DNA of 64,000 nt, from contig NZ_CP028339.1 of assembly GCF_003030465.1 (NCBI RefSeq), forward strand, positions 868,001 to 932,000, in the 5' to 3' direction. The stretch comes from Thauera aromatica K172. Lineage in GTDB: Bacteria; Pseudomonadota; Gammaproteobacteria; Burkholderiales; Rhodocyclaceae. The stretch's first letter is position 1. Every line of letters begins with the position of its first letter. Positions 8,431 to 30,814 of this stretch are shown here, in pieces. The notes beneath the pieces are model-generated. The model was not told where the DNA came from and ran no database searches. It was given only the letters and a program-made list of their open reading frames with translations. The position numbers and the translations under genes were made by a program.

Positions 8431-8859
8431 TCAGGCGCCGGGGGCCGCGCCCGAGAGCAGGGCGACGATCCGCGGCGGCAGCGGCTTCGCCCGGACCCGG
8501 CCCTGTTCGCGATCGAAGGCGGTCCAGACCCGGGTTTCGCTGCATTCGACCGCGATCGTGCCGCCGTTGCGGACGAGGTGGCGGATCTCGAACGCGCTGC
8601 GATGCACCGCCGCAATGCTCGATTCGATGACGATGTCGTCGCCCCAGCGGGACGGGGCCTTGAACCGGGCCTGGTTGTCGACGAGCGGGATGCCGTCGAT
8701 GCCGAACTCGTCGATCATCGATTTCAGCGTCAGCCCGGCGCGCCCGAGCAGGGCATGCACCGAGAAATCGAACCAGACGAAGTAGTGCGGGTTGAAGACG
8801 ATCCCCGATGGATCGCAATGGCCGAATTCGACCTGCAGGGTTCGGGTGTTGGAGAGCAC
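8431..8859 (-). CDS. 4-hydroxybenzoyl-CoA thioesterase-family (hot-dog) thioesterase
   Basis: A 142-residue hot-dog protein predicted to hydrolyse an acyl- or aroyl-CoA. The motif VEFGHCDPSGIVFNPHY contains the family catalytic aspartate (Asp16), in the same surroundings as in Pseudomonas 4-hydroxybenzoyl-CoA thioesterase (DPAGIV). The remainder keeps the family length and a conserved FEIRHLV-type strand. It is encoded 94 bases downstream of a MaoC-like gene on the same strand, suggesting co-expression in acyl-CoA metabolism. The exact CoA ester cannot be read from sequence; YbgC-like lipid roles are an alternative. Confidence 0.8.
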   Translation of the reverse strand: MLSNTRTLQVEFGHCDPSGIVFNPHYFVWFDFSVHALLGRAGLTLKSMIDEFGIDGIPLVDNQARFKAPSRWGDDIVIESSIAAVHRSAFEIRHLVRNGGTIAVECSETRVWTAFDREQGRVRAKPLPPRIVALLSGAAPGA

Positions 8860-8953: not shown

Positions 8954-9460
8954 TCAGGCTCCGGGAGTGGTCCGGCAGCCGACCAGGTTGACCGCGAGCA
9001 TGCTCAGGACGACTTCGCCACGCTGATTGAGCACTTCGATTTTCGAGCGCACGATCCCCCGGTCCGGCTTCGACGCCGAGCGCCGCGCCTCCATCACCGT
9101 GACCCGGGTGCTGAGCACGTCGTCCGGGCGCACCGGCACGAGCCAGCGCAGCTCGTCGAGTCCGGGGGAGGACAGGCTGGCGTTGGCGCTCAGGTAATGC
9201 TCGGCGTACATCCGCATCATCAGCCCGCAGGTCATCCAGCCGCTGGCGATGAGTCCGCCGAACATCGTGTCGGCGGCCTTGGCCGGGTCGGTGTGGAAGT
9301 CCTGCGGGTCGTAGCGTCGGGCGAACTCGATGATTTCCCGTTCGCTGACCCGCATTTCGCCGAAGCGATGGACGGCGCCGGGGAGGTAGTCCTCGAAATA
9401 GCGGTCGTCGATCGGGCTGGAAAATGTACCCGGATGGGGCGAATGGCATTCTTCGGTCAT
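8954..9460 (-). CDS. MaoC-like (R)-enoyl-CoA hydratase family protein
   Basis: A 168-residue single hot-dog protein of the MaoC/hydratase-2 family, which hydrates enoyl-CoA or related thioesters. The hydratase motif is present in degenerate form: RRYDPQDFHTDPAKA followed by FGGLIASGWMT, where the Asp and His are the usual catalytic pair. The central YFEDYLPGAV segment is typical of the fold entrance. It precedes the thioesterase gene on the same strand with a 94-base gap. Substrate unknown. The ribosome site before the chosen ATG is weak, so the start may be slightly off. Confidence 0.8.
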   Translation of the reverse strand: MTEECHSPHPGTFSSPIDDRYFEDYLPGAVHRFGEMRVSEREIIEFARRYDPQDFHTDPAKAADTMFGGLIASGWMTCGLMMRMYAEHYLSANASLSSPGLDELRWLVPVRPDDVLSTRVTVMEARRSASKPDRGIVRSKIEVLNQRGEVVLSMLAVNLVGCRTTPGA

Positions 9461-9580
9461 GGTCGGGCGGATCCGTGGTGGTTTGCGCCATGATAGCCGA
9501 TCGTGCCGGTCGCGCCCGCCCGGATTCCCGGGGCTTCAGCCTCGTTGGACTGGCCTGGAGCTGGGGGCGCTGGCCCGGCG

Positions 9581-10528
9581 TCAGTCTGGCCCTTGCCGGC
9601 TGTGTGCCTGGGGTGCTGCAGCTGGCTGTGAGGCTGAACCGTCTGACGCCGGCGCGCAGGCCGCAAATCGTGCCGGGTGCAGACCGGCCGCGGACAGATC
9701 GCGGATGAATTCGCTGGAAGCGAGATAATCCAGCTCCGCTTCGCGGGGCGTGGTCAGCGGGTCGCAGGCGATCAGTGCGGGGCAGACGCGGCCTGGGTGC
9801 ACATGGAGCAGTGGGCGGGGGCCGGTCGCGGCGAGAAAACGGCGCATCTTGCTGCCGAAAGGCCGGGCCGGCGAGAAATCGTGCAGGCCGCTGAACCCGT
9901 CGTTGGCAGGAATGCCCGCCGCGTGCAGCTGGCGGTGCAGGGCGAGCCCGAGCACGGTAATGAGCAAGGCCTTGCCCAGGGCTTCACCGCGCTGCAGGCA
10001 GCGCCGCGGGGGTTCGACGCAGTTGCGCACCCATACGCGGCCCGCAGGGTAGCGGTCCAGCAGTTCGGCGACCAGCGCCTCGCGGACACCAGGAAGGACA
10101 TGGACGTGCTGGTGCCCATCCACATGGTCGGGCGGTGCGCCCCAGGCGTCTTCGAACGCGTCGAGCTGTGCCCGTAACTCGTCGCGGATCGCGGCGGTCG
10201 GCAGGCGGCGGGCGAGCGCCCTGGGCAGAAGGTGGCCCAGGGGCGGTAGGCGGCCATTGATGGTCAGGCCGGTGGCACGGCTCAGGGGGGCATGGTCGGT
10301 CAGGGTCAGGTGCAAGCCGGTGTCGAACGCCGCTTCCACGGCAGTCTGGCGCAAGGCCGGGGCGGCTGCACGCCAGCCGGGTAGGGCCGTCATGCAGCTC
10401 GTGGCCGACAGCCGGGCGGTACGGATCAGTGCGATGATGGCGTCGCTGACGCCCGGGGCGAGGCCGTAATCATCCGCGCAGACGACGATCGGGCGCAGTG
10501 GGGCGGGCGGGGCAGAGGAGCGGGGCAT
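9581..10528 (-). CDS. ChbG/HpnK-like carbohydrate deacetylase (YdjC family)
   Basis: A 315-residue member of the YdjC/ChbG/HpnK metal-dependent deacetylase family, acting on N-acetylated sugars or, for HpnK, glycosylated hopanoids. The metal-binding VCADDYG (Asp19-Asp20), the DTGLHLTL strand and the HVDGHQHVHVLPGV motif with its histidines are intact. I start at the ATG at 10528; the open frame extends 30 codons farther but that part is not family-like and would run into the divergent gene. It is divergently transcribed from the GT2/GT-C/GtrA cassette, so it may trim a sugar handled by those enzymes. No hopanoid synthesis genes are in the window, so the HpnK role is unproven. Confidence 0.8.
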   Translation of the reverse strand: MPRSSAPPAPLRPIVVCADDYGLAPGVSDAIIALIRTARLSATSCMTALPGWRAAAPALRQTAVEAAFDTGLHLTLTDHAPLSRATGLTINGRLPPLGHLLPRALARRLPTAAIRDELRAQLDAFEDAWGAPPDHVDGHQHVHVLPGVREALVAELLDRYPAGRVWVRNCVEPPRRCLQRGEALGKALLITVLGLALHRQLHAAGIPANDGFSGLHDFSPARPFGSKMRRFLAATGPRPLLHVHPGRVCPALIACDPLTTPREAELDYLASSEFIRDLSAAGLHPARFAACAPASDGSASQPAAAPQAHSRQGPD

Positions 10529-10678
10529 GCGGGTGTGATCGGATCGACCTTGCGGCAAGGAGCGTGGCGGCAACGGTGGCGCGATGTTGTCCTGCGCCTC
10601 GTGCAGCGTCAACAGCACGGATTGGTTTATCGTTCACCGCCTCGCTTTTTGCCGAGAAACCTAGACCAGGTCCGAACC

Positions 10679-11689
10679 GTGCTCAACTCCGACTCCCTTG
10701 CCGCACACCCGCACGTCTCTTCCAGTTCTGCAAGCCATCCGCGACTGTCCGTCGTCATCCCTCTATACAACGAGAGCGGTTCGATCCAAGCACTGCATCG
10801 GCGCCTGAGTGCGGTGCTGGACGGCCTGCCGCTCGACGGGCGGGAAGTGGTGTTCGTCGACGACGGCAGCCGCGACGACACTTTTGCCCGCGTCTCGGCG
10901 CTGTGTGCGGTGGACCCGAAGCTGCGTGCGATCCGCTTTGCCCGCAACTTCGGGAAGGAGGCAGCCATGGCTGCGGGGCTGCGCGCCGCTACCGGGGACG
11001 TGGTGGTGTTGATGGACGGGGATCTGCAGCATCCTCCCGAGCTTATTCCGGCGCTGCTCGAGCGCTGGCGCAACGGCGCGATGATGGTGACGGCGGTCCG
11101 CCGCTCGCGCGAAACCGATCCGTGGCTACGGCGTCAGCTGACACGCGCCTTCTACGGGTTTTTCAGCCGGATCTCCGAAGTCACCCTGGCCGAGGGCGGA
11201 GGCGATTTCCGCGTCTTCGACCGCGCGGTGGTCGATGCCATCAACAGCCTTCCCGAGCGGACCCGGTTCATGAAAGGGATCACCAGCTGGGTCGGATTTC
11301 GCCAGGAGGAAGTGGATTTCGTGCCCCAGGCGCGTGCGGCCGGTGAGTCCGGCTGGCCGATGCTGCGTCTGTTGCGCTACGCCCTCGATGGCTTGTCCGC
11401 ATTCAGCACCTTGCCGCTGCGGGTGTGGTCCTTGGTCGGTCTGGTAATGGCGGGGTTATCCGGGATCTACGGCTGCTGGCTGATCGGGCGTACCCTGATT
11501 TTCGGCATTGACCTGCCGGGCTACATCTCCATGATGGTGTCCGTCCTGTTCTTGTCCGGCATCCAGCTCATCAGCCTGGGAGTTCTGGGCGAATACATCG
11601 GACACATCTTCACCGAGGTCAAGGGGCGGCCGCTGTTCCTGGTTGCGGAGCGGATCGGTTTCGATGAGTCGTCCGGGGCGGGTTCATGA
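10679..11689 (+). CDS. GT2 polyprenyl-phosphate glycosyltransferase (GtrB/DPM-like)
   Basis: Predicted to transfer a sugar from a nucleotide donor to undecaprenyl phosphate on the cytoplasmic face. The GT-A fold begins at about residue 24 (LSVVIPLYNES), with DDGSRDD and the DxD-like MDGDLQHP motif. Two membrane helices near the C-terminus (about residues 235-260 and 275-300) match the GtrB/ArnC architecture. The start is uncertain: a GTG at 10679 gives 336 residues, the usual size, while an upstream GTG at 10535 would add 48 residues. The next gene overlaps by four bases (ATGA), so the two are translationally coupled. A GtrA flippase-like gene completes the set. Confidence 0.85.
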   Translation: MLNSDSLAAHPHVSSSSASHPRLSVVIPLYNESGSIQALHRRLSAVLDGLPLDGREVVFVDDGSRDDTFARVSALCAVDPKLRAIRFARNFGKEAAMAAGLRAATGDVVVLMDGDLQHPPELIPALLERWRNGAMMVTAVRRSRETDPWLRRQLTRAFYGFFSRISEVTLAEGGGDFRVFDRAVVDAINSLPERTRFMKGITSWVGFRQEEVDFVPQARAAGESGWPMLRLLRYALDGLSAFSTLPLRVWSLVGLVMAGLSGIYGCWLIGRTLIFGIDLPGYISMMVSVLFLSGIQLISLGVLGEYIGHIFTEVKGRPLFLVAERIGFDESSGAGS

Positions 11690-13359
11690 ATGGCAGCGCT
11701 TCCGGGGCCCGGGCCAGTGGCATGCGGGGGGGCGCCGGTCACGGCCCGTTCCGCACAGCGCCGTCGCGATGGGCCTTTCGCCTGGCCGTGCTGCTGCTGG
11801 TGGCCGCCGCGGCCTTCATCCTGACGGTCTTCGACCGGTATGGCATCAGCAACGATGAGGAAGTCCAGCATGTATATGGGCGGTTGCTGCTCGATTTCTA
11901 TGCATCGGGGCTGGATGACCGGCGTGCGTTCGAATACAAGAACCTTTATCTCTACGGTGGGCTGTTCGATCTGATCGCGGCGGCGCTCGAGCGCCTGCTG
12001 CATCTCGATCCGGCGGGAGCGCGGGTGTGGGAGCTCCGGCACCTGTTGTCGGCTATGTTCGGTCTGTCCGGTCTGGCGGCGTGCTGGATGCTGGCCCGCC
12101 AACTGGGGGGTGAGCTTGCCGGGGTAGTGGCGCTGGTCCTGCTGCTGGTCACCGGCACCTGGACCGGCGCGATGTTCACCCATACCAAAGACGTCCCCTT
12201 TGCCGCGACGATGGCGTGGGCAGCGTTCTTCACCGTGCGCGTGTGCCGCGCGCTGCCGTCGCCGCCGATGGCGGGCGTGGTGGGGCTCGGGCTGGCGCTT
12301 GGCTGTGCGTTCGGCCTGAGGGTCGGTGCAGTGTTCGCGGTCGGCTACCTGGGAATCACGGTGCTGGCGCTGAGCGTCCAGGAGCGGCGCGGGTCGGTGC
12401 CGGCGCGCTTGGCATTTCTTCGCAAATCGGCCGTGAGCCTGCTGCCGGTCGCACTGATCGCAGCGCTGCTGGCGGCGCTGTTCTGGCCGTGGGCGGTGAT
12501 GTCAGCTGGCAATCTGGTGAAGGCGATTACTGCTTTTTCGCATTTTTCGTTTCAGCTGGACACCATCCTCGATGGCCGGGTGATGGCCAACGGCGAGGTG
12601 CCCGCGCATTACCTCGTATCCTACCTGCTGGTGCGTCTGCCCGAGTTGTTCCTGCTCGGCCTCGCCTTCGCCGCATGGGTCGGCTTGCGTACCCTGCCGG
12701 CGCTGTTCCGCGCGGACGGGCGCGAGACCTCCTGCCACGGATTGCCGGTGATCCTGGCTGCCCTGCTGCCGCTGGGCTACACCTTGCTGGCCGCTCCGCC
12801 CCTGTATAACGGCATCCGACATTTCATCTTCCTGCTGCCGCCGCTCGCGGCGCTTGCGGGAGTGGGGTTGGTGAAAGCCTGGCAATCGGCCGTGCGCTGG
12901 CCACGCGCCCGCATTGCAGGGCTGGCGGGGAGCCTGTTGCTGCTGGCGGTGCATGCCGGCACGCTCGTCCGTCTGCACCCTTACGAGTATGTCGCCTACA
13001 ACAGCCTGGCCGGTGGCCTGCGTGGTGCGGCCGAGCGCTGGGAGCAGGATTACTGGGCGACCAGTCTGCGCGAAGCAGCCGGGCAGCTGAACACCCTGGT
13101 CGCGCGCGAGGGCGCTACCGGGCGGGTATACACGGTGGCTGTGTGCGCCGAGCCCTTCCAGGTCGCAGTCTGGCTGGACCCGGGGCTGATCGTGACGCGC
13201 GACTGGCGTGCGGCCGATTTTTTCCTGTCGCCGACGCACATGGATTGTGATGGAGCGCTGAAGGGACAGGTCGTCGGCAAGGTGGAACGCGATGGGGTTC
13301 CGCTCGCGGTGGTGCTCGATCGGCGCATGCTCACGGGCGAGGCGCGCAGGTCGCGATGA
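11686..13359 (+). CDS. GT-C family integral-membrane glycosyltransferase
   Basis: A 557-residue protein with roughly ten hydrophobic segments and a C-terminal soluble tail, resembling ArnT/PMT-type GT-C transferases that use polyprenyl-phosphate sugars on the periplasmic side. The acidic NDEEV motif (Asp57-Glu59) just after the first membrane helix sits where GT-C enzymes hold their catalytic acidic residues in the first periplasmic loop. A later NGIRHFIFLLPPLA segment fits the PMT-like core. Start and stop overlap neighbouring genes by four bases on each side, so the three genes form a tight operon. The acceptor (LPS, protein, hopanoid or other) cannot be deduced. Confidence 0.75.
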   Translation: MNGSASGARASGMRGGAGHGPFRTAPSRWAFRLAVLLLVAAAAFILTVFDRYGISNDEEVQHVYGRLLLDFYASGLDDRRAFEYKNLYLYGGLFDLIAAALERLLHLDPAGARVWELRHLLSAMFGLSGLAACWMLARQLGGELAGVVALVLLLVTGTWTGAMFTHTKDVPFAATMAWAAFFTVRVCRALPSPPMAGVVGLGLALGCAFGLRVGAVFAVGYLGITVLALSVQERRGSVPARLAFLRKSAVSLLPVALIAALLAALFWPWAVMSAGNLVKAITAFSHFSFQLDTILDGRVMANGEVPAHYLVSYLLVRLPELFLLGLAFAAWVGLRTLPALFRADGRETSCHGLPVILAALLPLGYTLLAAPPLYNGIRHFIFLLPPLAALAGVGLVKAWQSAVRWPRARIAGLAGSLLLLAVHAGTLVRLHPYEYVAYNSLAGGLRGAAERWEQDYWATSLREAAGQLNTLVAREGATGRVYTVAVCAEPFQVAVWLDPGLIVTRDWRAADFFLSPTHMDCDGALKGQVVGKVERDGVPLAVVLDRRMLTGEARRSR

Positions 13360-13751
13360 GGCTGAGTGAAGGCGTCCGCCGCTTCGTCCGCTTTGCCGCA
13401 GTCGGCCTTGTCGGCACGGCTGCGCATTATGCCCTGCTCATCGTACTGGTGGAGGTGATCGCGGCTCCGCCGGTGCTCGGCGCCGCTGCTGGATTCTGCC
13501 TGGGGGCTGTGGTCAACTACGGACTTTCCCGGGTGTGGGTCTTCGACTCCGATCGCGGCCACCTTGTGGCCCTCTCGCGTTTCCTGCTGATTGCGCTGAT
13601 GGGGCTCGGGTGGACCGCATTGTTGATGCTGCTGCTTGCCCGGATGGCGGGGCTGCACTATCTGGTGGCACAACTGCTCACCACGGCCCTGGTGCTGTTC
13701 TGGCACTTCGCCGGCAATGCGCTATGGACCTTCCGCCGGCAGGTCGAATGA
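13356..13751 (+). CDS. GtrA family membrane protein
   Basis: A 131-residue protein with four membrane helices, typical of GtrA, proposed to help flip undecaprenyl-phosphate-linked sugars across the inner membrane. The FVRFAAVGLVGT opening and the NYGLSRVWVF and ALWTFRR motifs are standard for the family. The ATG overlaps the preceding GT-C gene stop by four bases. With the GT2 and GT-C genes it forms a complete three-part cassette: load, flip, transfer. It ends 52 bases before the convergent MFS gene. Confidence 0.88.
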   Translation: MRLSEGVRRFVRFAAVGLVGTAAHYALLIVLVEVIAAPPVLGAAAGFCLGAVVNYGLSRVWVFDSDRGHLVALSRFLLIALMGLGWTALLMLLLARMAGLHYLVAQLLTTALVLFWHFAGNALWTFRRQVE

Positions 13752-13802
13752 GCTGGAGTGAGGCTTCCAGCACATGCCTTGCCGGCGCTTCCGGGGTGCC
13801 GT

Positions 13803-15209
13803 TCAGCGTGCAGCCCGGGCCAGTTCCGCATTGCCGGAGGCCGGCTGGCCTGCCGCGGTGGCTGCAGCACGCTGCCTCTTGAGGCTCGGGATGTGGTTCT
13901 TCACGAGGGTGAGGGCGGCCAGGGTCAGGACCATCGAGAAGCCGAGCAGGGACAGATAGGCCGAGGCGCCACCCGAAGTGATCACCGCAGCGCCTGCGAA
14001 CGAGCTCAGGATCGCACCCAGGCGGCCGAAAGACAGCGCCGCCGCCGTGCCGGTGGCGCGGACGATCGTCGGATAGACGTAGGCGCACAGCGCGTACATG
14101 GTGGACTGGACGGCGAGGACGAACATGCCGTGGAGGCCGAGGCCGAGCATCAGCCAGGTCGTGTTTCCGGAGATGTCGACGCTCTTCAGCAGGAAGGCGC
14201 TCGCCGCCGCACCGATGCTGCACAGGACGAGGGGAATGCGCGAGCCGTAGCGCGTGATCGCGAGCGCGCAGCCCAGCGAGCCGACCACGCCGCCAAGGTT
14301 GTAGGCGGTCAGGCCGGAGCCGGCCAGCGTCGTGGGCAGGCCTTCGGCGGCGAGCATCGTCGGCAGCCAGCTGAAGGCGCTGTAGGTGGCGAGCATGACC
14401 ATGAAGAAGCCGATCCAGATCGCCAGCGTGTCGCGCATGCGCCCGGTCTCGAACAGCGAAGCGAAGCCGGCGCGTTGTTCGCTGGCGCGCTCGGCGGCAT
14501 CGACGAACACGGTGTCGGCAGGGGTCGGGCGCGCCATGCGCGCGAGCAGCGCCCGCAGCTCGGCCCAGCGCGCACGCTGGCGCACGAGGTAGCGGGGCGA
14601 TTCGGGCAGAGTCGCGAGCAGCACCAGGCTGTAGGCCACCGGCAGGGCGCCGCCGACCCAGAACAGGCCGCGCCAGCCGAGGACCGGCAGGATCACGCCG
14701 GCGAACAGCCCGGCGAGCATGCCGCCGAGCGGGTAGCAGACGATCGTTGCGGTCACCGCCAGCGTCCGGCTGCGCGCCGGGGTGAATTCCGCGGTCATCG
14801 TCGACGCGCTCGGCAGGGCGCCGCCGATGCCCAGGCCGGCGATGAAGCGCAGCATCGTGATCGCGAGCACGTCGGGGGCAAAACCGATGGCGATGGTCGC
14901 GGCGCCGAACAGGAACACGCTCGCTGCAAGGACCAGGCGCCGGCCGATGCGGTCGGCGATGACGCCCGCGCCGGCACTGCCCACGGCCATGCCCACCAGT
15001 CCGGCGGCGACTGCCGGTGCAAATGCGGCCTTGGTGATGCCCCATTCCTGGATCAGCATCGGAATCGCGAAGCCGATCAGTTGTCCGTCGAAGCCGTCGG
15101 TCACGATCGCGAGCGCGGCGAGGATGACGACGATGCGCTGCATGGACGTGAATGGGCCGTGGTCGAGCACGCCGCCGATGTCGACGGAGGTGGAGGAAGG
15201 TTTATGCAC
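13803..15209 (-). CDS. MFS transporter, aromatic acid:H+ symporter (AAHS) type
   Basis: A 468-residue major facilitator with about twelve membrane helices, closest in pattern to the aromatic acid:H+ symporter group (PcaK, BenK, MhpT). Visible signatures are TDGFDGQLIGFAIP in helix 1, GSAGAGVIADRIGRR in loop 2-3 and LRFIAGLGIGGALP in helix 4. A long loop follows helix 6. I start at the GTG at 15209, with GGAG eleven bases upstream; the frame is open farther but without family-like sequence. It is co-oriented with the DUF2889 and PadB-like genes, 460 bases downstream of the former, which supports uptake of an aromatic acid. The substrate is not determined. Confidence 0.85.
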   Translation of the reverse strand: MHKPSSTSVDIGGVLDHGPFTSMQRIVVILAALAIVTDGFDGQLIGFAIPMLIQEWGITKAAFAPAVAAGLVGMAVGSAGAGVIADRIGRRLVLAASVFLFGAATIAIGFAPDVLAITMLRFIAGLGIGGALPSASTMTAEFTPARSRTLAVTATIVCYPLGGMLAGLFAGVILPVLGWRGLFWVGGALPVAYSLVLLATLPESPRYLVRQRARWAELRALLARMARPTPADTVFVDAAERASEQRAGFASLFETGRMRDTLAIWIGFFMVMLATYSAFSWLPTMLAAEGLPTTLAGSGLTAYNLGGVVGSLGCALAITRYGSRIPLVLCSIGAAASAFLLKSVDISGNTTWLMLGLGLHGMFVLAVQSTMYALCAYVYPTIVRATGTAAALSFGRLGAILSSFAGAAVITSGGASAYLSLLGFSMVLTLAALTLVKNHIPSLKRQRAAATAAGQPASGNAELARAAR

Positions 15210-15669
15210 GGTGAATCGATCTCCGGTCGTTTTTTCGATGCGCTTCGCCTGCGCGCGCGCGGAATACGGGAGCTGTTTCACGGCCGGATCGACGATGCGC
15301 GATTGCACGTTTCCGCTACGACCGGCGCAGTGGTCCTGACGGGGCGTTTCCGCCCGAAACGGGCGCTGCGACGGCGGTGCACGCCCGGGCGCGAATTTCA
15401 GCGGGCGAGACGATACCATTCTGATTGATGGACAACAAATTTTTGTATCACATTGCCGGGGCGAAGGCGCAGGATGGCGCGGGCCCGCGCCCCGCCCTGC
15501 TCAGGCGGCAGTCAAGGGAAGCGCGGCCCGGGCGGGTGCCGCCGCCGTGCTTCGTGGCTGGCGATGGCAGGGGGGCGTGGTGTGAAAGGGACGGACCGGC
15601 CGGGGAAGGCCGGTCGGGAGGGGGGCGGCTACCCGCGGGCTTCCGCTGCGGGAGCGGGCGAGCGGCCGT
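15210..15669. other. Intergenic region upstream of the MFS gene, with an AT-rich palindrome
   Basis: These 460 bases hold no convincing gene. A short AT-rich island at about 15415-15455 contains the 12-bp palindrome ACAAA-TT-TTTGT at 15435-15446. On the minus strand a weak sigma-70-like pair (TTGTTG, 17 bases, TATCGT) overlaps that palindrome, pointing toward the MFS gene, which would then have a leader of about 200 bases. The rest is GC-rich and featureless; rightward open frames here lack any recognisable sequence. Confidence 0.4.
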
Positions 15670-16230
15670 TCAGCGGTCGAGCAGTTCCGGATATTCGCGG
15701 CGCACGGTGTCGCCGCCGTGGCGCCAGGCCTTGCACTCGCCGACGAAGGCGGTCACGCGCGGGTCCGTCCAGCGCCGGGGATCGGGTTCGATTTCGAGCT
15801 GGCGGGCGATCCGGTCCGGCCAGGAGGCCTGAGTGTAGGTGTTGCCGACCTGGGTGATGAGGTCGGTCAGGTGCACGCAGCCTTCCTCGCCGCCGACGCG
15901 CTCGCGCACCTGGCGCATGAAGCCCGCTCCGATCTGGAGGCCGATCAGGCGGCGGTAGGCGGCCAGGCTGTCCGGGCAGGTGGGCCAGGGGGCGGTCTGC
16001 ATCCGGGCTTCGACATCGCGGATCGTGAACTCGCCGTCGATCAGGAAGGCGATCGTCAGGTCGTGAAGGTTCTTGCCCGGCTGCACCGACTCGCGCGAGC
16101 GGAACACCATCTCATGGGCTTTTTCGTCGGTGACCGTGGCTTCGATTTCCCACAGGCCGTCCTTGCGCCGATACGCGCGGCAGGTGATCCGGCGCGTGTG
16201 CATCAGCTCGCGCTCGCTTTCTCCAAACAT
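15670..16230 (-). CDS. DUF2889 domain protein
   Basis: A 186-residue soluble protein matching the DUF2889 pattern: an N-terminal CRAYRRKDGLWEIEATVTD stretch followed by a conserved DLTIAFLIDGEFTIRDVEA region and a central GAGFMRQVRERVGG segment. No biochemical function is established. The ribosome site AAAGGAAC precedes the ATG at 16230. It lies 121 bases downstream of the PadB-like gene on the same strand, with a hairpin in the gap, so it is probably part of the same transcription unit. Its tie to the molybdoenzyme is positional only. Confidence 0.75.
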   Translation of the reverse strand: MFGESERELMHTRRITCRAYRRKDGLWEIEATVTDEKAHEMVFRSRESVQPGKNLHDLTIAFLIDGEFTIRDVEARMQTAPWPTCPDSLAAYRRLIGLQIGAGFMRQVRERVGGEEGCVHLTDLITQVGNTYTQASWPDRIARQLEIEPDPRRWTDPRVTAFVGECKAWRHGGDTVRREYPELLDR

Positions 16231-16351: not shown

Positions 16352-19102
16352 TCATTGCCCGCCGCCGACCCGCTTCACCCCGACCGGCACGATGTCGCCG
16401 GCCGAGCCGGTGGCGTCGGTGAGGTCGAGCAGCATCGGCACCAGGCTGTTCATGCTCGTGACTCCGAAGTCCTTCGCCGTCGGCGTGACCCAGTGGTCGA
16501 ACTGGCCGATCATCAGCAAGGTGTCGGGGCGGATGCCCTGGCGCAGCACCACGCGGCCGCGGGTGGCGCGCAGCGGCGAGCGTACTTCGATGAGGTCGCC
16601 GTCCTCGATGCCGAGCCGGCGCGCGGAGGCAGGGTTCATGATCACGCCGCGGTGGCCGGCGACGTTGGCGGCGGCGCCGCGCACAACCTGCAGGCTGACG
16701 TTGCCGCCCCAGGCGTACTGCATGCTGCGTGCGGTCAGCAGCCAGAACGGGAAGTCTTCCTCCTGCCCGCCGAGGTTGGCAATCACCGCGTCCTTGATCA
16801 GCTGCGAGAAGTCGTGGAATTCGGGCAGCGCACGGTATTCGCCGAGCTGGCGGTCCCACCACTGGATGCCGGCTTCGTGGAGGCGGCGGCCGAGCTCGGT
16901 GCCGACGCGCAGGATGCGCTCCTGGTAGGGCATCTCGAAACGCATGCCGTTGTCGACGAGGTGGGGGTAGAGGTACCACTGCAGGCGCGGGTAATCGATG
17001 GTGCGGAAGCCGTGCTCGCGCCACCAGTCGAGGCCGTGCTCCTCGGCGCCACCGGTGAGTTCGGCGCTGGCGGCGCGGCAGCTGGCGTCCCAGATCGTCT
17101 CCACGCTGTGGGCCTGGTCGAGGGGCAGCGAGTAGTCGTAGTTCGCCCCTTTCAGCGGCACCCCGGCAGCGCCCTTGTTGATCGCCTTATTGTAGTTTTC
17201 GAGCACCCCGGTGCGCCGCGCCAGTTCGGTGGTGATCCAGGTGAAGTCGCGCGTCTCGCCCTGCGGCACGACCGCCGGCTGGCGCAGGGCGAAGCCCTGT
17301 TTGTCCCAGAACTGCTCGACGTACTTGGTGCCGCCGATGCGGATCAGCTGTAGACCTTCGAGGTCGGTGCAGTCGGGCAGCAGGACGTCGGCGAAGTGGT
17401 TGGTCTCGTCGCGGGTGTAGGTGAAGGCGACGACGAAGGGGAACTTCGAAACCGCTTCGGCGACCTGCGGCGTATCCCAGAACGAGATCACCGGGTTGGT
17501 GCGGTAGAAGAACCAGACGTCGGGTTGGGTCGGCTCGGGGAAATTCTCGAAACCGTGACGCTGCTGCATCCAGGCGAGGTGGGTGGGGCCGAGCGCTGCG
17601 CTCCAGGCCGAGTTCGCCACCAGCGGCACGAGGGTGCGGTTGGCGTTGCGGATCTGCGGGCGGGAGACCCAGTTTTCCTTGTCGGTGGGGTTGAACGGGT
17701 AGTCCATGAAGCCGTCGGGGCCGGGCTTGGCGCTGCTTTGGCGGTCGCTCGCCGGGCGGTTCAGGCGCACCGTGGTGCCGATCGTGCCGCCGGGGACGTC
17801 GAGGGCGCCGACCAGGCAGGCCATCAGGGTGCGGGCCCAGCAGCAGTCGTAGCCGCCCCAGCCGTTGTTGACGGTCTTGCCCAGGGTGATCGCCACCGGG
17901 CGCAGGGGCAGGGTGCGGCCTTCGATCTCGATGGTGGCGCCGATCTGGGCGTGGTCGAGGTATTCGTTGGCGACGCGGCGGATGGTGCCGGCGGGGACGT
18001 CGCAAACCTTCGCCGCCCATTCCGGGGTGAATTCGCGCTCGTGTTCGAGGAGTTTGCCGAACGCGGTGCTGACGCTGACCCCGGTGTGCTCGAAGCGCTC
18101 GCCGTCGGCGCCGAGTTCGAGGCCGTTGGCGGCGAAACAGCCTTCCAGCGCGGGGTCGGTGTCCGCGGTGTCGAACGGCACCGCGGCGGCGCGCTTCAGG
18201 TCCCACACCAGCGGCTTGCGCGTGTCCGGATCGCGCAGGTAGTAGCCGTTGGGCGCGACCAGGTAGGGCGAAGCGGTCATGTGCTTGAGGAAGTCGATGT
18301 CCAGGCGTGTGCGCGCGTTCTCGAACAGCATCACGTGGATCATCGCGTGCATGAACGCGGGGTCTGTCTTGGGCTTGATCGGCACCCACTCGGCCGAGCA
18401 GCCGCCGGTAACCGACAGGTGGGGCTCGACCTGGACGCGCTTGACGCCCTGTTCGACGCGCGCTTCGGCATGGCGCCAGACCCCACACACGCCGCCGGAA
18501 GCTTCGATGTTGCTGCCGAAGGAGACGATGTACTTGGTCCGCGGCGTGTCCGGGCAGACGGTGAAGGCGCGGTGCCAGAGCTCGCCGTAGAGGTGCTCGG
18601 AGTGGGTGCACTTGACTCCCTGGCCGCTGCCGAAGCTCAGGTCGACCGGCCCCCAGGCGGAAAGAAAGGCGGGGAAGGTGCCCATGTAGGCGGTGGGGGT
18701 GCCGCCGCCGCCGAAGCTCGCCGCCACGCGCGGATAGCCGGAAGCGTCGAGCAGCCCGTTCGCACGCACGGTGTTGAGCTTGTCGGCGATCAGGTCGAGC
18801 GCCTCGTCCCACGAGATCGGCACGAAGCCGGGGTCCTCGTCGCGCCCCTTCTTCGGGTTGGTGCGCTTCATCGGCGTGAGCACGCGGTTCGGGTTGTAGG
18901 TCTTCTGCACCAGGCCGAAGGCCTTGACGCACACCCGGCCGTCGGCCGGGTGCACCCCTTCGGCGTCGAAGTTGGGCTCGATCGCGGTCGCCACGCCGTC
19001 CTCGACCTTGACCTTGAACAGATCCGGGCCGGCCACGCACTGGTAGCAGTAGCCGGCGACCCGCTTGACTGACGGCGATTCGGTGCTCGATGCGGTTCCC
19101 AT
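16352..19102 (-). CDS. PadB-like molybdopterin oxidoreductase (phenylacetyl-CoA:acceptor oxidoreductase family)
   Basis: A 916-residue catalytic subunit of the DMSO-reductase superfamily. Overall pattern, including GYCYQCVAGPD near the N-terminus and an ASFGGGGTPTAYMGTFPAF stretch, resembles PadB, which in Thauera and Aromatoleum oxidises phenylacetyl-CoA to phenylglyoxylate anaerobically. The N-terminal Fe-S motif is reduced: Cys19, Cys22 and Cys58 are present, but the third Cys of CxxCxxxC is Pro26. Cys165 (GVKCTHSEH) is a candidate molybdenum ligand. No Tat signal is seen, so it is probably cytoplasmic. The ATG at 19102 follows AGGGA. PadC (Fe-S) and PadD (membrane) partners are absent nearby, so it is orphaned or uses distant partners. 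Substrate assignment is inferred. Confidence 0.68.
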   Translation of the reverse strand: MGTASSTESPSVKRVAGYCYQCVAGPDLFKVKVEDGVATAIEPNFDAEGVHPADGRVCVKAFGLVQKTYNPNRVLTPMKRTNPKKGRDEDPGFVPISWDEALDLIADKLNTVRANGLLDASGYPRVAASFGGGGTPTAYMGTFPAFLSAWGPVDLSFGSGQGVKCTHSEHLYGELWHRAFTVCPDTPRTKYIVSFGSNIEASGGVCGVWRHAEARVEQGVKRVQVEPHLSVTGGCSAEWVPIKPKTDPAFMHAMIHVMLFENARTRLDIDFLKHMTASPYLVAPNGYYLRDPDTRKPLVWDLKRAAAVPFDTADTDPALEGCFAANGLELGADGERFEHTGVSVSTAFGKLLEHEREFTPEWAAKVCDVPAGTIRRVANEYLDHAQIGATIEIEGRTLPLRPVAITLGKTVNNGWGGYDCCWARTLMACLVGALDVPGGTIGTTVRLNRPASDRQSSAKPGPDGFMDYPFNPTDKENWVSRPQIRNANRTLVPLVANSAWSAALGPTHLAWMQQRHGFENFPEPTQPDVWFFYRTNPVISFWDTPQVAEAVSKFPFVVAFTYTRDETNHFADVLLPDCTDLEGLQLIRIGGTKYVEQFWDKQGFALRQPAVVPQGETRDFTWITTELARRTGVLENYNKAINKGAAGVPLKGANYDYSLPLDQAHSVETIWDASCRAASAELTGGAEEHGLDWWREHGFRTIDYPRLQWYLYPHLVDNGMRFEMPYQERILRVGTELGRRLHEAGIQWWDRQLGEYRALPEFHDFSQLIKDAVIANLGGQEEDFPFWLLTARSMQYAWGGNVSLQVVRGAAANVAGHRGVIMNPASARRLGIEDGDLIEVRSPLRATRGRVVLRQGIRPDTLLMIGQFDHWVTPTAKDFGVTSMNSLVPMLLDLTDATGSAGDIVPVGVKRVGGGQ

Positions 19103-19163: not shown

Positions 19164-19183
19164 GAATGACCGTTCAGTCATTC
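19164..19183. promoter_or_regulatory. TetR-type palindromic operator upstream of the PadB-like gene
   Basis: GAATGAC and GTCATTC are perfect seven-base inverted arms around CGTTCA. The TGAATGA...TCATTC form resembles operators of TetR-family regulators of acyl-CoA metabolism, such as FadR of Bacillus. It sits 61 bases before the PadB-like ATG, directly next to a possible -10 (CATATT, minus strand), an ideal position for repression. No TetR gene is in the window. The site could also serve the divergent ampD. Confidence 0.5.
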
Positions 19184-19341
19184 TTTGTGAGCAAGGGGGA
19201 AAAGTCAAGGCGCGCGTTCTGGCGTGCGAGGACGGGCGCGCGTGCTGCGGGTTGCGGAGCGCGCCGCCGGCGCTTGCGCTTGGCGGCGCGCTCCGCATAG
19301 GCTGTCGGCCTCATTCAGGGCGTTGCCGGAGGTCTTGTGCC

Positions 19342-27003: not shown

Positions 27004-27064
27004 TGAAGTGACTTAACGGATGTCTGCTGCGATAATGCGTCATGCATGCAAAGCGGAGAGCCGA

Positions 27065-28150
27065 ATGCGAGTTGCGCCCGAGATTGTTTTGACCGAGGAC
27101 GAGCGAGCGGAACTGGGCAAGTTGGCGGCCTCGCGGCTGACGAGCGTCAGGTTGTCGCAACGTGCTCGGATTGTGCTGCTGGCGGCCGAGGGACTGCAGA
27201 ATCGACAGATTGCGGAGCAATTGGGCATCGGGCGAATTCAAGTGGCCCGCTGGCGTGGGCGCTATGCGCAGATGCGGCTTGCCGGGATCGAGCGCGATTT
27301 GCCGCGGGGTGCGCCGCCGAAGAAGGTGGACCTGACGCGGCTGGTGGAACTGACCACCCAGACCCAGCCCGAAGCGGCCACGCACTGGAGCACGCGCAAG
27401 ATGGCAGCGAAACTGGGCGTGCATGCGACGACCGTCGGGCGGCATTGGCAGGCGGCCGGACTGAAACCGCATGTCGTGCGCGGTTTCAAGGTTTCGCGCG
27501 ATCCGAAGTTTGTCGAGAAGCTTGAAGATATCGTCGGCCTGTACATGGCCCCGCCCGAGCACGCGTTGGTGCTGTGCTGTGACGAGAAGAGCCAGGTCCA
27601 GGCGCTCGATCGCACACAACCCGGATTGCCGTTGAAGAAGGGGCGGGCGGCCACCATGACTCACGATTACAAGCGCAATGGCACGACCACGCTGTTTGCC
27701 GCGCTCAACGTGCTCGATGGTCAGGTCATCGGGCAATGCCAGCAACGACACACCCACGCCGAGTGGTTGAAGTTCCTGAAAAAGATCGACCGCGAAACGC
27801 CCAAGGACAAGACCTTGCACCTGATCGCCGACAACTACGCTACGCACAAGCATCCCGTCGTGCAGGAGTGGCTCGCCAAGCACCCGCGCTTCGTCATGCA
27901 TTTCACACCCACCTCGGCTTCCTGGCTGAACATGGTCGAACGCTTCTTCCGCGACATCACCACCGAGCGACTGCGTCGCGGCGTCTTCACCAGCGTCCCC
28001 GAACTCGTTACTGCCATCGATGAATACATCGCTCACCACAATACCGACCCCAAGCCCTTCATCTGGACCAAGAGCGCTCGCGACATCCTGCAGAAGGTTA
28101 TCCGTGCCAACAGCCGCTTAAGCTCCAAACAGAATGCAGCACTACACTAG
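27065..28150 (+). CDS. IS630-family transposase
   Basis: A 361-residue transposase. The N-terminal part has helix-turn-helix sequence (SQRARIVLLAAEG, NRQIAEQLGIGRIQVARWR). The C-terminal DDE_3 endonuclease domain has its triad at Asp173 (LCCDEKS), Asp256 (IADNYATHK) and Glu292 (WLNMVERFFRD). I start at the ATG at 27065, just inside the left end. The reading frame runs straight through the right terminal repeat; its TAG stop is formed by the duplicated target TA plus the flanking G, so the stop is outside the element proper. Confidence 0.92.
   Translation: MRVAPEIVLTEDERAELGKLAASRLTSVRLSQRARIVLLAAEGLQNRQIAEQLGIGRIQVARWRGRYAQMRLAGIERDLPRGAPPKKVDLTRLVELTTQTQPEAATHWSTRKMAAKLGVHATTVGRHWQAAGLKPHVVRGFKVSRDPKFVEKLEDIVGLYMAPPEHALVLCCDEKSQVQALDRTQPGLPLKKGRAATMTHDYKRNGTTTLFAALNVLDGQVIGQCQQRHTHAEWLKFLKKIDRETPKDKTLHLIADNYATHKHPVVQEWLAKHPRFVMHFTPTSASWLNMVERFFRDITTERLRRGVFTSVPELVTAIDEYIAHHNTDPKPFIWTKSARDILQKVIRANSRLSSKQNAALH
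28131..28147 (-). repeat. IS630 right terminal inverted repeat
   Basis: Complement of the left end with one mismatch in 17 bases. It is also coding sequence: it encodes the last residues of the transposase. Confidence 0.85.
28148..28149. repeat. TA target site duplication, right copy
   Basis: Right copy of the duplicated TA, followed by the target G. It supplies the first two bases of the transposase stop codon. Confidence 0.85.
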
Positions 28151-28329: not shown

Positions 28330-30198
28330 ATGGGTGCAGCCCTCCCCGAACCGGCTCCGAGCCGCTTGTTCCTGTCCGGTAACGACGCCGTCGCGCTCGC
28401 CGTGCGCGACGCCGGCTGCCGTGTCGCCGCCGCCTATCCGGGGACGCCGTCGACCGAGATCCTGGAAGTGCTCGCGCGCTATCCGGATCTGTACACCGAG
28501 TGGTCGATCAACGAGAAGGTCTCGCTCGAAGTGGCGCTCGGCGCCTCGATGGTGGGTGCGCGCGCGTTCTGTGCGATGAAGCACGTCGGTCTCAACGTCG
28601 CTGCCGATGCGCTGATGACGATGACCGTCACCGGCACCGAAGGCGGCCTGGTGATCGCCGTGGCCGACGACGTCGGCATGTCCTCGTCGCAGAACGAGCA
28701 GGATTCGCGCTTCTGGGCGCGCTTCGCCCATCTGCCGCTGTTCGAGCCGGCCGATGCGCAGGAGTCCTACGACATGACGCGCGCGGCGTTCGCGCTGTCG
28801 GAGCGTTTCCGCTGCCCCGCGATCCTGCGCCTGACCACTCGCATCTGCCACGTCAAGGGCCGGGTGCTGCCGGGCGAGCGCGAAACCCACGAGCCGGGCG
28901 GCTTCGTCAAGGACCCCCAGCGCTGGGTGATGGTCCCCGGCAACGCCAAGCCGCGCGTGGCGCGGATGCACGAGCGCGAAGAGGCGCTGCGTGCCGCGAG
29001 CATGGAAAGCGCGTTCAACGCGCTGCTGCCGGGCGAGGACCGCCGCATCGGCTTCGTCGTTTCCGGGCCGGCGTTCATGCACGTGCGCGAAGCCTTCCCC
29101 GCCGCGCCGGTGTTCAAGCTCGGCCAGTCCTATCCGCTGCCGCTCGAGCGCGTGCGCGAACTGGCCGTCGGCGTGGACCAGCTCCTCGTCGTCGAAGAGA
29201 CCGAGGCGCTGGTCGAAAACGAGCTGCGCGCCGCGGGCATCGCCTGTTCCGGCAAGGACACGCTGCCCCGGGTCGGCGAACTGTCGCCCGATGTGCTCAA
29301 GCCGGCGGTCGCCCGCCTGCTCGGCGAACCCGTGCCGGCGAAGGCACACCTGGCGCCGCAGCAAGTGTTCCCGCGCCCGCCGACGATGTGCGTCGCCTGT
29401 CCGCACCTAGGCATCTACTACACCCTCGCCCAGCTGCGCAACATCACCATCTCGGGCGACATCGGCTGCTACACCCTGGGGGCCGGCCAGCCCTGGAATG
29501 CGCTCGACACCTGCATCTCGATGGGAGCGTCGATGGGGGTGGCGTTGGGCATGGACAAGGGCCGCGGCGAAGCCGACGCGAAAAAATCCGTGGTCGCCGT
29601 GATCGGCGACTCGACCTTCATGCACATGGGCATGCAGGGCCTGCTCGACATCACCTGGAACCGGGGCAACGTCACCGTCCTGCTGCTCGACAACCGTGCG
29701 GTCGGCATGACCGGCGGCCAGGACAACCCGGGCACCGGCCGCGACATCCACGGCGAAACGGTGCCGCGCATCGACTTCGCCAAGCTGTGCGAAGCCCTGG
29801 GGGTGAACAAGGAGCGCATCCATGTGCTCGACCCCTACCAGCTGCCGGTGCTGTTCAAGACGCTGCGCGAGGAAACCAAGGTCCGCGAGCCCTCGGTGAT
29901 CATCACCAACCGCCCGTGCGTGCTCATCGACGACTACCAGCCGGCCCAGCCCTACAAGGTCATCGCCGACCAGTGCACCGGCTGCGGCAACTGCCTCGAC
30001 GTCGGCTGTCCGGCGATCCACGTCACCCGCCGGGCCAAGGAAGTGAAGCCTTCCGGCAAGGAAGTCGAGCTCGCCTTCACCCGCATCGAGACTTCGGCGT
30101 GTACCGGTTGCGGCCTGTGCGTGCAGCCCTGCGCGCCGGAGGCGATCGTCCATGCCGCACCCGAGCACCCGGTGAAATTCCTGCACGCGAAGATCTGA
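28330..30198 (+). CDS. iorA: Indolepyruvate:ferredoxin oxidoreductase, alpha subunit
   Basis: Oxidatively decarboxylates arylpyruvates (indolepyruvate, phenylpyruvate, hydroxyphenylpyruvate) to arylacetyl-CoA, reducing ferredoxin. The 622-residue protein has the fused IorA layout: pyrimidine-binding domain at the N-terminus (AAAYPGTPSTEI), thiamine diphosphate domain in the middle (SGDIGCYTLG, GDSTFMHMG), and two 4Fe-4S motifs starting at about Cys549 (CTGCGNC) and Cys591 (CTGCGLC). A GAGAGGAAG site precedes the ATG. iorB follows after ten bases. In denitrifying aromatic degraders this enzyme serves anaerobic phenylalanine, tyrosine or tryptophan breakdown, which agrees with the FNR-type promoter. 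Confidence 0.95.
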   Translation: MGAALPEPAPSRLFLSGNDAVALAVRDAGCRVAAAYPGTPSTEILEVLARYPDLYTEWSINEKVSLEVALGASMVGARAFCAMKHVGLNVAADALMTMTVTGTEGGLVIAVADDVGMSSSQNEQDSRFWARFAHLPLFEPADAQESYDMTRAAFALSERFRCPAILRLTTRICHVKGRVLPGERETHEPGGFVKDPQRWVMVPGNAKPRVARMHEREEALRAASMESAFNALLPGEDRRIGFVVSGPAFMHVREAFPAAPVFKLGQSYPLPLERVRELAVGVDQLLVVEETEALVENELRAAGIACSGKDTLPRVGELSPDVLKPAVARLLGEPVPAKAHLAPQQVFPRPPTMCVACPHLGIYYTLAQLRNITISGDIGCYTLGAGQPWNALDTCISMGASMGVALGMDKGRGEADAKKSVVAVIGDSTFMHMGMQGLLDITWNRGNVTVLLLDNRAVGMTGGQDNPGTGRDIHGETVPRIDFAKLCEALGVNKERIHVLDPYQLPVLFKTLREETKVREPSVIITNRPCVLIDDYQPAQPYKVIADQCTGCGNCLDVGCPAIHVTRRAKEVKPSGKEVELAFTRIETSACTGCGLCVQPCAPEAIVHAAPEHPVKFLHAKI

Positions 30199-30208
30199 GG
30201 AACCGACC

Positions 30209-30814
30209 ATGACCATCACCAACATCGCGGTTTGCGGCATCGGCGGCCAGGGCGTGATGACCGCCACCGAAATCCTCGCCGAGGCGGCGCTGTCGCTCGG
30301 CTTCGACGTCAAGAAGACCGAAGTCGCGGGCATGAGCCAGCGCGGCGGCGTGGTGACTTCGCACCTGCGCTTCGGCCCGCAGGTGCTGTCGCCGCAGATC
30401 GTGCCCGGAGAGGCCGACCTACTGGTCGGCTTCGAGGCCGCCGAAGCCTTGCGCTGGTCCCACATGCTGAAGCCGGGCGGCGTCGCCCTGGTCAACCAGG
30501 GGCGCTTCGTGCCGCCGGTCGTCACCATCGGCCTCTACGACTATCCGGCCGATCCGATCGCCGAAATGCGCGCTCTGGGGGTCGAAGTGTACGACTTCGA
30601 CGCCAGCGCGCTCGCGCTCCAGCTGGGCAACATCCGCCTCGGCAACACCGTGATGCTGGGGGCGATGTCCGACCGCCTGCCGTTTCCCGCCGACGTCCTG
30701 CGCAACGCGGTGCTGGCGCGCTTCGGCGTGCGCAAGCCGGCGCTCGTCGACCTCAACCGCCAGGCTTTCGAACTCGGCCGCGCCGCGGTTGCGGGGCTGG
30801 GCGCCGCCGCCTGA
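30209..30814 (+). CDS. iorB: Indolepyruvate:ferredoxin oxidoreductase, beta subunit
   Basis: A 201-residue gamma-domain-like subunit of 2-oxoacid:ferredoxin oxidoreductases that completes the IorAB complex. Visible signatures are NIAVCGIGGQGVMTATEIL at the N-terminus and EVAGMSQRGGVVTSHLRFG, both conserved in IorB. It starts ten bases after iorA and is certainly co-transcribed. The ferredoxin partner and the transaminase that would supply arylpyruvates are not in the window. It is convergent with the IclR gene. Confidence 0.95.
   Translation: MTITNIAVCGIGGQGVMTATEILAEAALSLGFDVKKTEVAGMSQRGGVVTSHLRFGPQVLSPQIVPGEADLLVGFEAAEALRWSHMLKPGGVALVNQGRFVPPVVTIGLYDYPADPIAEMRALGVEVYDFDASALALQLGNIRLGNTVMLGAMSDRLPFPADVLRNAVLARFGVRKPALVDLNRQAFELGRAAVAGLGAAA

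Follow-up and report, generated by a model that had tools for sequence, protein, structure and literature searches.

An orphan padB of Thauera aromatica: a second PadB that may draw on partners encoded elsewhere

In Thauera aromatica K172, a gene for a PadB-type molybdoenzyme stands apart from genes for the iron-sulfur subunit PadC and the membrane anchor PadD, which raises the question of whether its product works with partners encoded at a distance or oxidizes a different arylacetyl- or aryl-CoA with another electron acceptor. Both possibilities had been put forward in a sequence-only reading of the 64-kb window (the whole stretch of DNA analysed, to which plain coordinates refer), along with the claim that a DUF2889 gene and an MFS carrier accompany the gene. 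This gene, hereafter the orphan, and its surroundings, compared with those in a sister Thauera genome (G200), are as follows.

16352-19102, minus strand: orphan padB (catalytic molybdopterin subunit), 916 aa, ATG at 19102, stop at 16352
15670-16230, minus strand: DUF2889 protein, 186 aa, encoded directly after the orphan in both genomes that have one
13803-15419, minus strand: MFS carrier of the aromatic acid/H+ symport group (TIGR00895, 299 bits, below the cut-off of 419), start codon uncertain
9439-15681, no strand: stretch of ~6.2 kb absent from G200, with YdjC, glycosyltransferase 2, PMT-like, GtrA and MFS genes, splitting the array here
8954-9460, minus strand: MaoC-like hydratase, 168 aa, directly after the DUF2889 gene in G200
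8431-8859, minus strand: 4HBT-type thioesterase, 142 aa, after the MaoC gene in both genomes

The description of the product as a PadB-like molybdoenzyme was borne out and could be sharpened. The reading frame is uninterrupted over all 916 residues, and the protein contains the Pfam domains Molybdopterin (PF00384) and Molydop_binding (PF01568), both above cut-off. Its AlphaFold model (mean pLDDT 79.4, built from 33 sequences, with some low-confidence stretches) has the predicted fold of the DMSO-reductase superfamily, the top Foldseek matches being perchlorate reductase, ArrA, ethylbenzene dehydrogenase and PsrA (probability 1.00 for PcrA, ArrA and EbdA), and the sequence falls below the cut-offs for DMSO reductase type II (TIGR03479; 103 bits, 985 needed) and ethylbenzene dehydrogenase (NF042978; 26.6 bits, 2000 needed). 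A tree of 107 sequences places the orphans and the corresponding PadBs inside the Thauera/Azoarcus PadB clade (support 1.0). The nearest named relatives found are T. aminoaromatica, Azoarcus taiwanensis and T. phenylacetica; in a plasmid search, the sole match was 29% identical and came from Sporomusa. The PadB-family Fe-S motif C19-x2-C22-x4-D27...C58 is present, with C19 and C22 conserved in 91/91 and D27 in 98/98 of those of the 107 aligned sequences that reach each site, and C58 invariant in 33/33 sequences of a smaller alignment; these four residues would bind a cluster. Related enzymes have a third cysteine where the C-x2-C-x4-D of the PadB family (motif at 18929-19048, orphan residues 19-58) has its aspartate, which may itself be a cluster ligand.

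The claim that PadC and PadD are missing holds for the window, where tblastn searches with PadC and PadD of both sets of the genome found nothing related (lowest E-value 0.046, for 56 aa), but not for the genome (3.71 Mb, 2 contigs, 99.95% complete), which contains two padBCD sets. Its three PadB-type genes are the orphan and two relatives, 92% and 65% identical to it. The former is the padB heading a complete pad operon 484 kb from the orphan, which comprises padBCD, padE-I and a PaaK-type ligase gene and adjoins benzoyl-CoA pathway genes; the letters of those pad and benzoyl-CoA genes that have no family model are presumed from the usual gene orders. The latter, padB2, is found with fdhD, padC2, padD2 and a gene for a PaaX-type regulator. 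The 4-hydroxybenzoyl-CoA reductase beta subunit of this genome is identical over 324/324 residues to PDB 1rm6_B, which we take to be a Thauera aromatica protein. The sequence-only reading had named padCD co-expressed elsewhere in a standard role as a refutation of its proposal; half of this was found, in that padCD sit elsewhere in a standard pad operon.

G200, a one-contig genome, holds an orphan at the same place (94% identical to the query, compared with 89% for the G200 padB), and 2/29 genomes of the genus have one. There, padB, DUF2889, MaoC-like and 4HBT thioesterase genes form an array on one strand with gaps of 121, 15 and 88 bases, and the same four genes occur in the window, split by 9439-15681. 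We read the DUF2889, MaoC-like hydratase and 4HBT-type thioesterase genes as the ancestral neighbours of the orphan, and an insertion of the intervening stretch here is likelier than its deletion in G200. The DUF2889 gene does accompany the orphan as claimed, but for the MFS carrier the claim was not confirmed: it lies inside the stretch absent from G200 and its best relatives in the genus (60%–81%) reside in other contexts, which rules it out as an ancestral partner. MaoC homologues of at least 75% identity were found in 5/29 genus genomes, all of them padB-bearing, and outside the two orphan loci neither DUF2889 nor MaoC homologues lie beside padB.

On the other side of the orphan, ~9 kb away, the window contains iorAB-type indolepyruvate:ferredoxin oxidoreductase genes (28330-30814; alpha subunit 619 bits, just below the cut-off of 651) that are conserved in G200. 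A DDE-type transposase gene (27020-28150, 376 aa) was not observed at the corresponding position of G200. A published study (PMC9765128) states that enzymes of the indolepyruvate:ferredoxin oxidoreductase type can convert phenylpyruvate to phenylacetyl-CoA.

The relationship between the orphan and padB is complicated by two long stretches of identity.

18246-18925, minus strand: conversion tract 1, 680 bases identical to pad-operon padB, sister-genome polarity mostly from orphan to padB
17234-17902, minus strand: conversion tract 2, 669 bases identical to pad-operon padB, sister-genome polarity from padB to orphan

All 224 differences in 2742 sites lie outside these tracts, where ~15% of the bases differ and the long unconverted parts are ~83%–86% identical; the longest identical run in 10,000 shuffles was 176, and the control pairs padB–padB2 and T. 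aminoaromatica–T. phenylacetica reach 34 and 70, respectively. Polarity was judged at sites where the G200 orphan and padB differ while the copies of the own genome agree. In tract 1, 18 sites match the G200 orphan and 5 the G200 padB, with a mixed distribution (residues 126-200, 15 orphan versus 1 padB; residues 60-125, 1 versus 4), whereas in tract 2, 40 sites match the G200 padB, 6 the G200 orphan and 1 neither. These patterns indicate that gene conversion between orphan and padB went both ways and, the polarities being opposite, that each copy supplied working sequence to the other. The same regions of the G200 pair have a lower dS (0.11 vs. 0.29), pointing to older conversion there.

In the tree, the orphans group with the PadBs of T. 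aromatica and G200 (support 0.94 at full length, 0.84 for the unconverted parts). With the converted tracts left out, the orphans pair as a clade next to the two PadBs (support 0.84), and the four sequences are separate from the T. aminoaromatica-type PadB, which points to a duplication within this lineage of Thauera that predates the divergence of the two species. For residues 15-916, dN/dS is 0.19 between the orphans and 0.15 between the PadBs, and both orphans are intact and under purifying selection. Outside the tracts, the orphan–padB value (0.33–0.38) exceeds that between padB and T. aminoaromatica padB (0.24–0.25), so that constraint was relaxed, or its direction changed, after duplication. 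At sites where at least 90% of 105 other PadBs share a residue, 7/368 are changed in the orphan and 8/367 in the G200 orphan, the family median being 8. At 55 positions, the two orphans share one amino acid and the two PadBs another; residues 301-400 hold 19 of these fixed differences and residues 601-916 hold 31, which would leave room for a different aryl-CoA substrate.

Upstream of the orphan, there is a candidate regulatory region.

19164-19208, minus strand: perfect 20-base palindrome at 19164-19183 and, overlapping it, promoter-like hexamers at 19208-19180; conserved in G200

The palindrome lies 62-81 bases 5' of the start codon. The motif GACCGKTCAGTCAT occurs in this upstream region and 117-130 bases before the pad-operon padB, and not in the padB2 locus; the two upstream regions match at 13/14 positions, a match that is weak by itself and also reached by 12/299 random 200-base stretches, and a shared operator of orphan and pad operon would be a lead only. 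For PaaR of Burkholderia cenocepacia, TetR-type repression of phenylacetate genes via inverted repeats in core promoters is known (PMC2770484).

Is the orphan, then, a redundant duplicate without a function of its own, kept similar to padB by occasional conversion and heading for loss? Such a fate would fit the conversion itself, the raised orphan–padB dN/dS, the rarity of the orphan in the genus and the change of Glu809, present in 100% of the other aligned PadBs including the G200 orphan, to glycine. Nevertheless, we consider it unlikely, if worth keeping in mind, as the orphan is older than the split of the two species and its frame is still open in both (dS outside the tracts 0.29–0.36 between orphan and padB, compared with 0.075–0.10 between the species), dN/dS between the orphans (0.19–0.27) is below 1, and the promoter-like stretch with its palindrome is conserved in G200.

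If the orphan is a working gene, the question of partners returns, and the main argument, one by analogy, comes from other genomes. A padC match lies within the examined stretch at 101/109 other padB loci; of the remaining eight, three end at padB and five (G155, G010, G017, L109 and L135) do not, the sequence beyond the lone padB extending for 1.5 kb in G017 (subsequently extended), ~2.4 kb to the contig end in L109 and 8 kb in L135. The genomes G010 (one contig) and G155 (a draft, as is G017) carry padCDEFGHI elsewhere without padB, G017 has padCD elsewhere, without padB or padE-I in the stretch examined, and the genome of L135 has a padC elsewhere (73%). No padB remnant adjoins the distant padC of G010, G155 or G017, and rescoring of all candidates left one PadB-type gene in each, other matches being at most 31% identical. 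In these cells, padB is unlinked from padCD and, if PadB needs PadC, they must pair the two in trans. We regard them as a natural precedent for distantly encoded partners, the better half of the earlier guess, given that padC and padD are present in the T. aromatica genome as well. The lone padB of G010 is accompanied by fdhD and genes passing the 4-hydroxybenzoyl-CoA reductase cut-offs, G155 and G073 have the same arrangement judging by gene lengths and order, and G017 has a similar trio. Three loci of one PadB clade without padCD, beside fdhD and a 4-hydroxybenzoyl-CoA reductase-like trio, come from three genomes of one genus:

L172, 8955-16479
L175, 4451-12046
L178, 2727-10238

At another locus (L176, 5545-7119), padB is directly followed by a gene for a 524-aa protein with a PadC-like Fe-S domain and a weakly NrfD-like membrane part, probably a PadC-PadD fusion. 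In titles and opening abstract lines on padB/PadBCD, DUF2889 and T. aromatica K172, in a search that took in a minority of subscription journals, no padB without padC is named.

The alternative, namely, that the orphan is a soluble or otherwise-partnered enzyme that works without PadC and PadD and passes electrons to a different acceptor, strikes us as quite improbable. The lack of an adjacent partner gene and the divergence from padB outside the tracts would agree with it, but the conserved array contains no alternative electron-transfer gene, nothing positive was found in favour of another acceptor, and roughly half of the gene consists of tracts exchanged with padB, a sign that its core is still subject to the same requirements. 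Finally, an artefact of assembly or polishing, with padB sequence duplicated at a second locus, might explain two exactly identical tracts 484 kb apart, but it is scarcely credible given the unique tract flanks and the differences outside the tracts, and is refuted for the gene as such by the independent sequence at the same place in G200.

The DUF2889 gene offers a further link to padB. In a survey of 199 genomes of the family, with at most four candidates scored per genome and counts uncorrected for kinship, its clade (>220 bits) was found in 19, of which 18 are among the 39 with padB, and all 6 genera with the clade have padB; within the genus, 6/29 genomes have it, all among the 7 with padB, again uncorrected for kinship. 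As a marker of the benzoyl-CoA pathway it fits less well, a BcrC query having matched 13/199 genomes, of which 8 carry the DUF2889 clade, although a single such query misses divergent reductases. The contexts of DUF2889 vary by genus, including XdhC, MobA-like and class-V aminotransferase genes, among others, and what look like Mrp-type antiporter genes, so that no single function follows. In one genus, DUF2889 lies near genes for XdhC, a MobA-like nucleotidyltransferase and a class-V aminotransferase (L081, 7812-12615), and the XdhC/MobA-like neighbourhood hints at a molybdoenzyme maturation context. By sequence, DUF2889 has no PDB relative, and its single-sequence AlphaFold model (mean pLDDT 45.6) was set aside.

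Taken together, partners in trans appear to explain the orphan better than new chemistry, and we regard it as fairly probable that the orphan encodes a functional second PadB, one that docks on PadCD in trans to oxidize phenylacetyl-CoA or a close analogue. Under this scenario, padB of Thauera was duplicated and the orphan copy was kept under selection while still exchanging DNA with padB. Its product would most likely fold around a bis-MGD molybdenum and an Fe-S centre of its own and dock on PadC and PadD from the pad operon, in which case one electron-transfer module would serve two catalytic subunits. Phenylacetyl-CoA or a close analogue would be oxidized at the alpha carbon to the arylglyoxylate, the electrons passing from the orphan PadB via PadCD to quinone, and the arylglyoxylyl-CoA intermediate could be hydrolysed by the thioesterase of the array; roles of the neighbours, DUF2889 and MaoC included, are inferred, as is co-regulation of the orphan. 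More tentatively, PadB might be an exchangeable module, with one membrane-bound PadCD unit accepting alternative PadBs encoded elsewhere, with residues 301-400 and 624-916 varying the substrate range and conversion preserving a uniform core for docking and cofactors, and with the DUF2889 clade as a PadB-associated maturation or assembly factor. The locus offers a ready case for testing if the catalytic subunit of a molybdoenzyme can use, in trans, a membrane partner that it shares, and it links DUF2889 to the genomes of anaerobic arylacetate degraders.

Phenylacetyl-CoA:acceptor oxidoreductase (PadBCD) was reportedly purified from Thauera aromatica by Rhee and Fuchs in 1999, and, T. aromatica being the source of the enzyme, a second near-identical subunit means that in such strains enzyme preparations may be mixed and padB mutants masked. 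The orphan resembles PadB of the pad operon in sequence family, clade, length and predicted fold, but differs in the lack of adjacent padC, padD and padE-I, in its own gene array and promoter-like region and in the fixed amino-acid differences. With padB2, which has a complete padBCD set, it shares the PadB family, but padB2 belongs to a separate clade and shares no conversion tract with the orphan (longest common run, 35 bases). EbdA, PcrA, ArrA and PsrA have the superfamily fold in common with the orphan PadB, at 16%–19% identity in structural alignments. The lone padB genes of G010, G155 and G073, like the orphan, lack adjacent padCD, but represent another PadB clade and, beside 4-hydroxybenzoyl-CoA reductase genes and fdhD, a different pathway.
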